From positions 1 to 21,099 of the IMG/VR virus record IMGVR_UViG_3300029910_000099: a DNA stretch of 21,099 nt; one strand, written 5' to 3'. The translations under genes were made by a program, and so were the position numbers. This stretch comes from a virus. The notes below the pieces were generated by a model. The model ran no database searches and was not told the DNA's origin. It was given only the letters and a program-made list of their open reading frames with translations. Shown piece by piece: positions 2,276-9,400 of this stretch; the stretch's first letter is position 1, and each line of letters begins with the position of its first letter.

Positions 2276-2947
2276 ATGGATTCGAGCCTTCTAGACACGG
2301 TTCCCGAGCCTACCAAGAATAGCCTCCTCGACAACCCAAGCATGGGTGTCGGGGCGGTCTACTTGATGCGGCACGGGAGCACCGTGCTCGATGTGACTCG
2401 ACGCTCAGACGGCTGGCTCGACATGCCGTTGTCGGACGATGGCCGTCTGAGCGTGATCCCGGCGCAGCAGTATTTGAAGACGATCCCGCTGAAGACGATC
2501 GTGTGCTCGGATCTGAAGCGCGTGAAGGAAACGGCGTACATAGTCGCCTCCGGCACGTTGTCCAAGCCGGAAGTGGTTCCGACGCATGACGGCCGGACAT
2601 GGAATCTCGGGATCATCGCCGGCACGAAGAAGCAGTACGGACGGCCCGAGGTCCAGAAGCTGATCGACTCGCCCGATACCGCGCCGATGGGCGGAGAGTC
2701 GTTCAACAGTTTCTGCGACCGGTTCCTGCCTTGGTTCAACGAGCAGGTCGAGAGCGCGACGCGCGCTGACCCGGTGCTCTACGTGGGCTCAGGAGCGAAC
2801 CTGCGCTTGATCGGAGAGACGCTCTTTGGCGATGCCGATGCGCTGGACCTCGACGAGGGCGGCCTGGTTGCTCTCCACAAGACCGGCGAGAGCTGGAACT
2901 ACGAGGTGGTCATGGGCGGCGAGGATTACGAAGGGGACATTTCTTAG
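2276..2947 (+). CDS. Histidine-phosphatase-fold (phosphoglycerate-mutase-like) protein, atypical active site
   Basis: This 223-residue protein belongs to the histidine phosphatase (branch 1, phosphoglycerate-mutase-like) superfamily. Visible motifs are YLMRHGST at residues 29-36, with the normally phosphorylated His33 after Arg32; PLSDDGR at 51-57; CSDLKRVKETA at 77-87, giving the second Arg (Arg82) and T86; and GGESFNSF at 139-146. The second catalytic His, normally in a VxHGxxxR context, is replaced: the matching stretch is YVGSGANLR, with Ser172 in the His position. The usual Glu of the general acid region is also not evident (RTWNLGIIAG). The first 26 residues lie outside the fold and contain SLLD twice. 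The ATG at 2276 lies just after AGAGGA; M23 is a less likely start. No counterpart sits here in T7. Substrate unknown; catalysis is doubtful. Confidence 0.8.
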   Translation: MDSSLLDTVPEPTKNSLLDNPSMGVGAVYLMRHGSTVLDVTRRSDGWLDMPLSDDGRLSVIPAQQYLKTIPLKTIVCSDLKRVKETAYIVASGTLSKPEVVPTHDGRTWNLGIIAGTKKQYGRPEVQKLIDSPDTAPMGGESFNSFCDRFLPWFNEQVESATRADPVLYVGSGANLRLIGETLFGDADALDLDEGGLVALHKTGESWNYEVVMGGEDYEGDIS

Positions 2948-2951
2948 AGAG

Positions 2952-3049
2952 TAATTTTAGGCGGCCTTCTCGCAAGGGCCACCGTGAATTACGAAGCGGA
3001 AACGCCGCGGGGACCTCGCAAGAGCCCGCGTGACGCCCGCCTAGAGTTA
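2952..3049 (+). promoter_or_regulatory. Candidate structured leader RNA upstream of the major capsid gene
   Basis: This fills the only long non-coding gap (2948-3154). Bases 2952-2964 (TAATTTTAGGCGG) can pair with 3037-3049 (CCGCCTAGAGTTA) in an unbroken 13-bp helix with two G-U wobbles. Inside lie three hairpins: one at 2965-2977 (CCTT/AAGG, or alternatively CTC/GGG closing a GCAA loop); GCG-GAAA-CGC at 2996-3005; and, with no gap, 3006-3030 (CGCGGG/CCCGCG, a GAC bulge, then CTC-GCAA-GAG). Two or three loops are of GNRA type. There is no T-run, so it is not a terminator, and no tRNA TPsiC arm. I infer a cis-acting leader that could influence processing, stability or translation of capsid mRNA; I recognise no known family. 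Confidence 0.5.
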
Positions 3050-3059
3050 AGGTGAGAGA

Positions 3060-3077
3060 GGGCCGGAAACGGGACCC
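3060..3077 (+). promoter_or_regulatory. Additional GAAA-tetraloop hairpin in the capsid leader
   Basis: GGG-CCG-GAAA-CGG-GA-CCC can fold into a 6-bp hairpin capped by a GAAA tetraloop, with a two-base 3' bulge. It lies ten bases downstream of the large leader fold. The remaining leader, 3078-3154, includes a short palindrome CTGCGCAG at 3086-3093 and then turns AT-rich before the capsid start. No clear sigma70 promoter is visible. Confidence 0.4.
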
Positions 3078-3140
3078 CGATCGAACTGCGCAGAGCTGCC
3101 GTGGAAGCCGGCCGAGTAGTTTTATCCCCCTTATATCAAA

Positions 3141-3147
3141 TTGAGGA
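3141..3147 (+). promoter_or_regulatory. Ribosome binding site that fixes the capsid start
   Basis: TTGAGGA lies 7 bases before the ATG at 3155. An in-frame GTG at 3101 would add 18 residues but has no such site and would begin inside the structured leader, so 3155 is taken as the start. Confidence 0.75.
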
Positions 3148-3154
3148 TTTTCAC

Positions 3155-4030
3155 ATGTCAATCAACTTGGGTGGCGTCTACACGTCCACCACGGACGCCG
3201 CGATTGCAGCGTTCGATACCGAAGTCAAGCTGGTGTACCAGGGCGAAGGCGTGCTGCGCAGTTGCGTTCGCGTCAAGACCGGTGTGACCGGCCAGCAATA
3301 CGCGTTCCGCAAGATGGGCGCAGGCATGGCCTATCAGCAGACCTCGTCCGCTGAAGCCATTACGCCGAACGACACCAGCCATAGCAAGATCTTCGCGACC
3401 TTGACCAACTGGCGCATCGGTGACTACACCGACCTGTTCGACCAGGCCGAGACGAATATCGACGAGCGCATGGAGCTTGCCAAGAGCTTCGCGAAGTCGA
3501 TCGGCCGCGCCGAGGACCAGCTGATCATCAACGCGTTGAACACCGCGACCGGACTTGCCGGCGCTGTGACTGCCAACTACGGCGGCACGAGCACGGGCCT
3601 CACGGCCGACAAGCTCCGCCACGCCAAGCGTTACCTGATGCAGAACCAGGCCGCCGGCGGAGACCATTACCTCGCGACGACTGCGATTGGCCTCGAGACG
3701 GCTCTGGCTGAGATCGAAGTCACTAGCGCTGACTACCAGACGATGCGCGTCCTTGTGGACGCGAACTTGGACAACAAGAAGGCCTTCGGCTTCACGTTCA
3801 AGATCATCGAGAATCGCTTGGAAGGCGGCTTGCCGACGGCGTCGACGACTTGCGTGTACTCCTACGCTTGGGACAAAGCTTCGACCGGTCTCGCGACCGC
3901 CATCGAGCCGCAGTCTCGCGTGGACTTCATTCCGGTCAACGGGGCCTGGCTGAGCCAGTCGATTTACATGGGCGGTTCGGCAGTCATTGACGCGTTGGGC
4001 GTCGTGTCGATCAGCGTGTACGGCTCGTAA
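3155..4030 (+). CDS. Major capsid protein
   Basis: This 291-residue protein forms the icosahedral shell. It follows the scaffold and precedes a small probable decoration gene and a terminator, as T7 gene 10 precedes its terminator. The N-terminus MSINLGGVYTSTTDAAIAAF, the region GQQYAFRKMGAG near residues 47-58, and a long helical segment after IDERMELAKSFAKSIGRAED are typical of podovirus coat proteins in the phage-capsid-like family. The C-terminal part is beta-rich and hydrophobic (QSIYMGGSAVIDALGVVSISVYG). No signal peptide or membrane segment is present. It is somewhat shorter than T7 gp10A (345 residues). It has its own leader and a strong ribosome site, consistent with high expression. 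An HK97-type fold is expected from the family but cannot be seen from sequence alone. Confidence 0.88.
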   Translation: MSINLGGVYTSTTDAAIAAFDTEVKLVYQGEGVLRSCVRVKTGVTGQQYAFRKMGAGMAYQQTSSAEAITPNDTSHSKIFATLTNWRIGDYTDLFDQAETNIDERMELAKSFAKSIGRAEDQLIINALNTATGLAGAVTANYGGTSTGLTADKLRHAKRYLMQNQAAGGDHYLATTAIGLETALAEIEVTSADYQTMRVLVDANLDNKKAFGFTFKIIENRLEGGLPTASTTCVYSYAWDKASTGLATAIEPQSRVDFIPVNGAWLSQSIYMGGSAVIDALGVVSISVYGS

Positions 4031-4399: not shown

Positions 4400-4429
4400 G
4401 GCGGGGGGACTAACACTCCCGCCTTCTTT
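4400..4429 (+). terminator. Rho-independent terminator after the capsid/decoration genes
   Basis: GGCGGG at 4400-4405 pairs with CCCGCC at 4418-4423, extendable to 8 bp by G-U and G-C pairs, and TTCTTT follows at once. It lies 8 bases after the decoration stop. T7 has its main terminator at the equivalent point after the capsid gene, so it probably sets capsid expression above that of the tail genes. Confidence 0.8.
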
Positions 4430-7497: not shown

Positions 7498-8148
7498 ATG
7501 CATATCGTGCCGACACGGGGGCGCCCTGCGCTCCTGCAGAGATTCTTTGACGTGGGGCAACCTGCCGAAAAAGGTGTCGTGGTCATCGACGCCGACCAGT
7601 GGGCGATGTACGAGAACGTACGCCTCCCTGCGAGTTGGACGCGCCTGAAGGTTCCTTCGATGCGCGGGTTCGTGTGGAAAGCCAACGCAGGCTTCGAAGC
7701 GTTCCCCGACGAGCCCTGGTACGCGTGGGGCGGCGATGACTGCATTGGCCGCACGAAGGGCTGGGATACGATCCTGTCGGCTGCCACGGTCGGCGGGTTC
7801 GTGTCGTGGGGCGATGATCTCCACGCGCACAAGTGCACGCATCCGTTTATCGACGGGGGGTTGTGTCGCGCGCTCGGGCATGTCGCCTACCCTGCATTTA
7901 AATCGCAGTACGTCGACTATGTGTGGGAGCAGGTGGCGTACAGACTAGGCATCGCCCGCCCGCGCATGGACGTGATCCAAGAGGCTCATCACTTTATGCC
8001 GGCGCAGGGCGCGACGCGGCCGAAGATGCAGCCGGACCTCACGGTGTTCGAGAGTCGCTTCTTCCGGCAGGCCGACAAGAAGCTGGCAGACGAGCATCTG
8101 GAGCAGATCATCGATATGTTGGCTACTGCGTTGAAATGCGCGTCGTAA
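7498..8148 (+). CDS. Putative glycosyltransferase, GT-A type
   Basis: This 216-residue protein looks like a compact nucleotide-sugar-dependent glycosyltransferase. It begins MHIVPTRGRPALLQRFF, the N-terminal strand and loop typical of GT2-like GT-A enzymes. A second strand, GVVVIDADQ (residues 26-34), follows. KANAGFEAFP (61-70) is in the place of the usual K-x-N-x-G motif, and WGGDDC (77-82) resembles the metal-binding D-x-D site. HHFMP near residue 163 could supply a catalytic-site His. No membrane segment, so it acts in the cytoplasm. GGAGGAG lies 7 bases before the ATG. Donor and acceptor cannot be deduced. Its last 13 bases overlap the next gene. Confidence 0.65.
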   Translation: MHIVPTRGRPALLQRFFDVGQPAEKGVVVIDADQWAMYENVRLPASWTRLKVPSMRGFVWKANAGFEAFPDEPWYAWGGDDCIGRTKGWDTILSAATVGGFVSWGDDLHAHKCTHPFIDGGLCRALGHVAYPAFKSQYVDYVWEQVAYRLGIARPRMDVIQEAHHFMPAQGATRPKMQPDLTVFESRFFRQADKKLADEHLEQIIDMLATALKCAS

Positions 8149-8762
8149 CCATCCTGCGCTCCGGCCAGGACTTCGCGCCGGTCCACGTTCAGGCTCTGCA
8201 GAAGCAGATCCACAAGCACTCGCCCAACGTCGAGTTCTTGTGCATCGCCGATGTGCCGGTGCCGAAAGTTAAGACGGTCATAGCCGACTACGACTGGCCG
8301 ACGTGGTGGCTGAAGATGGAAATCTTCCGCCCGAGCATCGAGGCGCCGTTCCTGTACATGGACCTCGACACCGTCGTGCGCGGCCCGATCGATGACTTCT
8401 TCGAAGGCCATCTGCCTGGCACGATGACCGGTCTTCGGGACAGCCGCCCAGGCAAGTTCGGCAACGGCCTGCTGTGGGTGCCGGACGGCGTCAGCGAGTA
8501 TCTGTGGAACGAGTGGCTGCTGGATCCGAAGAAGCACATGGCGCATTACGAGAAGTCCTACGACAACCGCATACCGCGGTACGACCAGGGCTTCATGGAA
8601 GATCGGATCCCAGGTCAAAACTGGGAAGACATCCTGCCGGGTCGCCTGACGACAGCGCAGGAAGCGATGCATAAGGGCTTCCGCCCGGGGCAGGATATCG
8701 TGATTTGTTGGGGGCGCCGTCGCCCGTGGCACTTGCCGATGTTCTCGGGGCTCTACCGATGA
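8136..8762 (+). CDS. Putative glycosyltransferase (GT8-like), first of a tandem pair
   Basis: This 208-residue protein has the layout of a GT8-like (glycogenin-type) GT-A fold. It starts with strand MRVVTIL, has WPTWWLKMEIF near residues 54-64, and then LYMDLDTVV, with the D-x-D metal/nucleotide-sugar site at Asp75 and Asp77. NGLLWVPDG and YDQGFM are probable acceptor and active-site loops, and WGRRRPWH near the C-terminus matches the GKPxPW-type end of the family. The frame extends upstream, but the ATG at 8136 aligns with the start of its paralogue downstream, so it is preferred. It overlaps the preceding gene by 13 bases and the following one by four (ATGA), implying coupled translation. 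About 45% of the first 86 residues match the next gene. Substrate unknown. Confidence 0.7.
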   Translation: MRVVTILRSGQDFAPVHVQALQKQIHKHSPNVEFLCIADVPVPKVKTVIADYDWPTWWLKMEIFRPSIEAPFLYMDLDTVVRGPIDDFFEGHLPGTMTGLRDSRPGKFGNGLLWVPDGVSEYLWNEWLLDPKKHMAHYEKSYDNRIPRYDQGFMEDRIPGQNWEDILPGRLTTAQEAMHKGFRPGQDIVICWGRRRPWHLPMFSGLYR

Positions 8763-9400
8763 AGATCGTCACAGCATTGAACAGCGGCGGCGAATTCACG
8801 CCCGCGCACGTCCAGGCGCTGAAGCGCCAGTGCGATCACTACGCGCCGTTCACCGAGTTCGTGTGCATCACGAACAAGAAGGTGCCGGGTGTCGACTGCA
8901 TCCCGGATCCGAACGAATGGCCCGGCTGGTGGATCAAGATGAACGCGTTCGCGCCTTCCATGAAAGGCACGATTCTTTGGATGGACCTCGACACCGTGAT
9001 TGTCGGATCGCTTGAGGCGATTACGAGCACTAATCGCCTCACGCTGCTCCGGGACTTCTATCGCGACGGCAAAAGGCATATCGAAGGCTTGCAGGCGTCG
9101 CTGATGCTGCTACCTGAAGAAGATCGCGCAGAGCCTTACGAGTACTTCAGCAAAAGTGCGCGTACGTACATGGAGACGTACAAGACCAAGGGTGACCAGC
9201 CCTTGCTCGAGCGCTACTACCTGAAGCATGCGCGGCGTTGGCAGGATGTGCTTCCCGGCCAGATGGTTTCGTGGAAGGTTGACTGCTGCGGCGGGAACAT
9301 TTTCCGCAAGCCGGTGATTCCCGCGGATGCGCGGATTATAGTATTTCATGGCAAGCCCCGCCCGTGGGACTGCCAAGAGTGGGAGCATTTGTACCGATGA
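8759..9400 (+). CDS. Putative glycosyltransferase (GT8-like), second of a tandem pair
   Basis: This 213-residue protein is a paralogue of the gene before it: 39 of the first 86 residues are identical by hand, with no gaps. It keeps strand MKIVTAL, the block WPGWWIKMNAF, and LWMDLDTVI with Asp75 and Asp77 as the D-x-D site. The C-terminus is FHGKPRPWDCQEWEHLYR, closer to the canonical H-x-G-x-x-K-P-W end of GT8 enzymes than its partner, whose His and Gly differ. The middle has diverged more, which suggests different acceptors. The start ATG overlaps the previous stop in ATGA. A longer frame from 8705 is rejected because it would overlap the upstream gene by 58 bases. It overlaps tail tubular A by ATGA. 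Target unknown: virion protein or host surface glycan. Confidence 0.7.
   Translation: MKIVTALNSGGEFTPAHVQALKRQCDHYAPFTEFVCITNKKVPGVDCIPDPNEWPGWWIKMNAFAPSMKGTILWMDLDTVIVGSLEAITSTNRLTLLRDFYRDGKRHIEGLQASLMLLPEEDRAEPYEYFSKSARTYMETYKTKGDQPLLERYYLKHARRWQDVLPGQMVSWKVDCCGGNIFRKPVIPADARIIVFHGKPRPWDCQEWEHLYR

Follow-up and report, generated by a model that had tools for sequence, protein, structure and literature searches.

In tailed phages, hundreds of capsid copies and a dozen portal subunits are made from the same operon. The coat-protein operators of the RNA phages MS2, Qbeta and PP7 are single hairpins of approximately 20 nt with a one-A bulge, and RNase III processing sites occur in the late and early mRNA of T7. 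The gene 10 unit of T7 (NC_001604) comprises the phi10 promoter, the gene 10 leader and the T-phi terminator. In cyanophages, the structured RNAs manA and wcaG precede metabolic, exopolysaccharide or photosynthesis genes (PMC2864571). The element described here is a new family within a known kind, the structured phage leader RNA. A first-pass annotation had proposed that a structured leader RNA of no recognised type directly precedes the major capsid protein (MCP) gene, and this is strongly borne out by covariation, a fixed position and absence from Rfam.

The window, i.e., the whole stretch of DNA that was analysed, is a virus record of 21,099 bases from a virus of bacteria. Its operon runs in the order portal (PF12236), a small gene, a scaffold-like gene with a weak PF05396 match, a histidine-phosphatase-like gene, a gap of 207 bases and MCP; the annotated gap ahead of MCP is real (2948-3154). 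Downstream of MCP, one small gene is followed by the tail genes. The nearest capsids of cultured phages are less than 40% identical to the window MCP. At the position of the histidine-phosphatase-like gene, the relatives that were inspected seemingly carry other genes or none. Elsewhere in the window, the frames 7923-8762 and 8705-9400 adjoin, and their proteins (MRVVTILRSGQDFAPVHVQALQKQ and MKIVTALNSGGEFTPAHVQALKRQ) resemble each other visibly; the paired frames within 7923-9400 are perhaps glycosyltransferase-like.

The leader RNA comprises approximately 180 letters, and its parts are listed in Table 1. Hairpin I begins 3 nt past the stop codon of the preceding gene and consists of a lower stem (GUAAUU/AAUUAC), a small internal loop and an upper stem; it is common in the family without being universal, since it is missing or altered in some of them (L121, L131, L064, L067 and L022). 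Helix B encloses hairpin II, in which GGAC (3011-3014) stands opposite C (3025) in an asymmetric internal loop. In hairpin III, C (3063) stands opposite GGAC (3072-3075), which is the motif of hairpin II with its orientation reversed. In the family, NNAC opposite C is found in both hairpins, usually as GGAC and oppositely oriented with respect to the hairpin loop, and the variants AUAC, ACAC, AAAC, GCAC and CCAC also occur. We interpret the bulges of hairpins II and III as one shared motif, and its repetition suggests a putative repeated binding or tertiary site. A further hairpin, IIb, has the loop ACGANAC in most members and is lacking from the window as well as from several relatives. The loop of hairpin IV follows U-G-R-R-A-x-x in most of the family and is T-loop-like by sequence only. 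The 3' strand of the closing helix P0 ends 9 nt ahead of the Shine-Dalgarno sequence of MCP, which lies just downstream of P0 and outside all the conserved helices.

Table 1. Coordinates of the leader RNA, its parts and neighbouring features in the window
Feature	Position	Strand	Basis or remark
Histidine-phosphatase superfamily gene	2276-2947		Between scaffold gene and MCP; PF00300, E 9.7e-24
Whole conserved leader RNA	2951..3133	+	Position and fold kept in ~40 relatives
Hairpin I	2951..2992	+	Minimum-energy fold of the window; comparable two-part hairpin of other sequence in most relatives
Helix B, 5' strand (GCGG)	2996..2999	+	Swap test; minimum-energy fold of the window
Hairpin II, GCAA loop	3007..3029	+	Double changes in 7/8 pairs
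Helix B, 3' strand (CCGC)	3037..3040	+	Swap test; minimum-energy fold of the window
Closing helix P0, 5' strand (UAAGG)	3048..3052	+	Swap test; minimum-energy fold of the window
Hairpin III, GAAA loop	3060..3078	+	7 pairs: 4 double changes, 2 invariant, 1 one-sided
Hairpin IV, 7-nt loop UGGAAGC	3098..3112	+	Double changes in 4/4 pairs
Closing helix P0, 3' strand (CCUUA)	3129..3133	+	Swap test; minimum-energy fold of the window
Shine-Dalgarno-like GAGGA of MCP	3143..3147	+	Sequence
MCP gene	3155..4030	+	PF19821, E 8e-55; phrog_3437 major head protein
Terminator-like GC-rich hairpin, T-rich tail	4400..4423	+	After MCP and the following small gene

The core alignment, A3, contains 30 sequences, and 24 pairs were scored in it. 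In A3, 92.9% of the cells are paired, compared with 28-46% in slid controls, a percentage that is favoured by the derivation of the structure from the same sequences; this derivation can hardly explain, on the other hand, the number of double changes, in which both sides of a pair are replaced and which were found in 20 of the 24 pairs. The covariation score of A3 is 0.480, compared with 0.147 after shuffling and 0.06-0.09 with slid partners. Judged by these compensatory double changes, which go beyond the shuffled and slid controls, the element is a conserved structured RNA. In addition, G-U cells outnumber A-C cells in the alignment (27 versus 7), which favours an RNA of the + strand. Because the length and sequence of helix B and P0 vary too much to be counted column by column, these helices were assessed by a swap test, in which the duplex energy of a sequence's own two strands is compared with that of strands exchanged between sequences. 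Across 36 relatives, helix B reached a z of -5.8 (none of 5000 permutations as good) and P0 a z of -3.0 (9 of 5000), kinship between the sequences remaining in the statistic; in a divergent subset (n = 23), the corresponding counts were 0/5000 and 136/5000. The compensation in helix B can also be followed by eye, from GCGG/CCGC in the window to CGAC/GUCG and CGAUGA/UCAUCG in two relatives (L020 and L002, respectively). A tandem G-A helix formed from the flanks of hairpin III, attractive by eye, was marginal in the same test (z -1.6) and was set aside.

The fold drawn in the first-pass annotation was different. Its 13-bp helix (2952-2964 with 3037-3049, two of the pairs being G-U), said to enclose three hairpins, is present in the sequence and is recovered when only 2940-3085 is folded (z -1.40; 19 of 200 shuffles equally good). 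However, the helix is absent from the minimum-energy fold of 2945-3140, which contains hairpins I, II and III, helix B and P0; in L002 and L020, the closest relatives, its best contiguous version is reduced to 6-7 pairs; and the strand-swap test on the 36 relatives gave no covariation for it (z +0.5). On these three grounds the 13-bp helix is ruled out as the functional fold, and another conserved architecture takes its place; the comparison of relatives, which had been suggested as a check, thus speaks very strongly for the conserved fold and not at all for the 13-bp helix. The GAAA-loop hairpin of that annotation persists as hairpin III, and the element, which it had ended at 3077, runs further, to approximately 3133. 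Hairpin IV is absent from the minimum-energy fold of 2945-3140 and draws its support from the relatives. In the suggested comparison of folding energy with shuffled sequence, the window by itself does not stand out (z about 0), whereas the family has a mean z of -2.70, with z < -1 in 30 of its 36 members.

The relatives were collected by capsid searches of IMG/VR, which yielded 17, 77 and 44 loci in succession, with many of the loci lying on the same contigs. The same element stands directly before MCP in approximately 40 relatives, whose MCPs are 46-100% identical. The covariance model R1 matches the window, itself among the sequences used for building R1, at 3006-3116 (75.2 bits, E 2.6e-17). 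With R1, each locus has a single match, immediately ahead of MCP, with E values of 1e-9 to 1e-29, and each of 12 contigs of 35-60 kb contains exactly one copy. Members outside the build set are matched as well (L003, L016, L020, L057, L067, L131, L126 and L127), and one locus missed by R1 (L064) has a gap that reads by eye as a divergent member. No R1 match was obtained in capsid clades at approximately 45% identity or less, which include Dunaliella viridis virus SI2, Methylophilales phage MEP301, and Vibrio and Pelagibacter phages. When 2.9 million virus contigs and approximately 85,000 genomes were scanned for its pattern, the element proved confined to this phage lineage, apart from two loci (L175 and L178), which were rejected as copies outside the capsid context, being apparent coding sequence with one hairpin matched in each. 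The sole match in genome_contigs (L123, JAJFUQ010000281.1) is the same phage operon on a contig binned as Nocardiaceae. This contig carries phage portal, scaffold and capsid genes plus the element, and its binning is either a hint of the host or an error.

Two further groups of observations concern individual relatives. The capsid gene of L003 contains a group I intron-like insert of approximately 213 nt (L003:6081-6257; RF00028, E 3.9e-9, 42 bits, under the gathering score of 50), and this relative has a different sequence where hairpin I stands. The marine relatives without the element (L073, L077, L081 and L085-L115) have a leader of their own with conserved hairpins, an example of which, GCAG-C-CC-GAAA-GG-AUAC-CUGC, resembles hairpin III by eye. 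Deep homology with the marine leaders (L073-L115 and MEP301) was rejected, as a preset motif criterion found nothing above chance; this criterion is strict: of 36 members, it picks up motif II in 32 and motif III in only 12.

Comparison with known RNA families also agrees with the first-pass annotation, which had recognised neither a tRNA or terminator nor a known ribozyme or riboswitch. Rfam 15 gave no match in the window, with none up to E 5 over 2900-3200, and no match at gathering score in the loci of 12 relatives; the Rfam ribozyme classes were likewise unmatched in the window and in these loci. ARAGORN found 0 tRNA/tmRNA genes, no intrinsic terminator or attenuator (GC-rich stem plus U run) was present in 2945-3154, and blastn of the gap against cultured phages gave no match. 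The open literature that was searched yielded no description of the leader RNA, although one may exist in a 2017 structured-RNA survey.

With respect to transcription, no T7-type polymerase (PF00940) was found in 12 contigs, which may be incomplete, while the same search found the polymerase of T7 itself at E 1e-109. The host polymerase is probably used. In the window, no sigma-70-like site was detected on the + strand before MCP. Promoter-like sites in the 260 nt before MCP have a family mean score of 3.0, compared with 5.7 in the members' own shuffles, and a score of 9 or more was reached in 1 of 36 members. Most relatives without the RNA have a sigma-70-like promoter, which in the marine group stands approximately 175 nt upstream of MCP. 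This contrast between clades is a lead and not a proof, given that the marine relatives are mutually close, base composition differs between the clades and the shuffles are mononucleotide. The terminator-like hairpin of the window (Table 1) is a putative 3' border of the capsid cassette; in 19 of 32 members, a similar hairpin lies 1205-1290 nt past the MCP start. Another terminator-like hairpin directly follows MCP in some members. Taken together, the absence of a T7-type polymerase, the scarcity of promoters and the terminator-like hairpin fit a capsid cassette whose output is controlled post-transcriptionally.

Based on the results presented above, we put forward, as a quite possible though not yet probable reading, that the RNA is a cis-acting structured leader in the late transcript of this podovirus lineage, which would act after transcription on MCP output. 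The leader probably sets the amount of shell protein made; from what the sequences offer, this output is most likely set post-transcriptionally, in an operon without a recognisable local promoter. Through the folded domain, MCP would reach an output unlike that of the portal and scaffold genes that lie upstream. By likeness to other phage capsid genes, we infer processing and stabilisation of the MCP message: in the favoured route, the long late message would be cut at or near hairpin I, the MCP message would be left with a 5' end protected by the compact fold, ribosomes would load directly downstream of the fold, and the terminator-like hairpin would mark the 3' end of the message in many members. 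A host nuclease, a ribosomal protein or a phage protein may recognise the fold, as the conserved loops and the paired NNAC/C bulges suggest. By its shape alone, hairpin I is compatible with an RNase III processing site; however, not all members have this proposed cut site in intact form, which counts against the favoured explanation, as does the openness of the ribosome site, which is only moderate and does not discriminate. Sequestration of the ribosome site was rejected as a route, its openness being indecisive.

The repeated bulge motif by itself is suggestive of a coat-protein operator, and a second, somewhat unlikely explanation builds on it: MCP, the scaffold or another phage protein may bind the NNAC/C sites and tune MCP translation, in an autogenous or assembly-coupled control. 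The asymmetric motif occurs twice and in opposite orientation, the element is found only ahead of a capsid gene, and rare motif variants tend to fall in both hairpins together (L057, L064 and L078), although this joint variation amounts to three divergent sequences and no conserved helix locks the Shine-Dalgarno sequence. We regard it as improbable that the element is a catalytic or ligand-sensing RNA, in which a new self-cleaving ribozyme or a riboswitch-like domain would separate or gate the MCP cistron; its compact branched fold, the conserved sequence of its internal loops and the T-loop-like loop of hairpin IV would suit such a function, but it matches no known ribozyme or riboswitch family in Rfam, has no obvious cleavage site, and a metabolite sensor ahead of a capsid gene would be unusual. 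Equally doubtful is an element acting at the level of transcription, whether as an RNA that modifies the polymerase (antitermination, as with the put RNA of HK022) or by attenuation before MCP. The terminator-like hairpin that many members have behind the capsid cassette and the probable use of the host polymerase are consistent with it, but antitermination sites, which are usually near the transcript start, rarely stand mid-operon before one gene, and the element contains no terminator-like U run. Accidental folding of a GC-rich intergenic stretch, to which the window alone, folding no better than its shuffles, might point, has a negligible probability and is refuted by the covariation over the 30 aligned members, together with the family mean folding energy and the fixed position.

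A large conserved RNA solely before the capsid gene of an uncultured podovirus lineage suggests an RNA-based solution to dosage, and its covariance model provides a marker for this lineage in metagenomes. It is unlikely that the leader represents a new functional class, in which either a capsid-assembly protein reads the two oppositely placed NNAC/C sites or the RNA cleaves itself in a new way, so that capsid output would be tied to particle assembly or would be released from the operon by the RNA. Involvement of a protein or of catalysis would open a new RNA class.

Among the known systems, the leader resembles manA and wcaG as a phage structured RNA ahead of genes that was found through comparative genomics, and it differs from them as the leader of a capsid gene, the word "capsid" being absent from the main text of PMC2864571. 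Like the operators of MS2, Qbeta and PP7, it places bulged hairpins, and thereby a possible protein-binding site, at a phage coat gene; unlike them, it is branched, spans approximately 180 nt, has 4x1 internal loops and belongs to a DNA phage. Hairpin I shares with the RNase III sites of T7 a long stem, an internal loop and a position at a cistron border, whereas helix B, hairpins II, IIb, III and IV, and P0 are far more elaborate and more conserved in sequence than a nuclease site needs. As in the gene 10 unit of T7, a capsid expression unit is set in a late operon, with the scaffold upstream, a leader before the gene and a terminator after it; T7 has its own polymerase and a promoter there, whereas the phages described here have no T7-type polymerase and carry a large conserved RNA instead.
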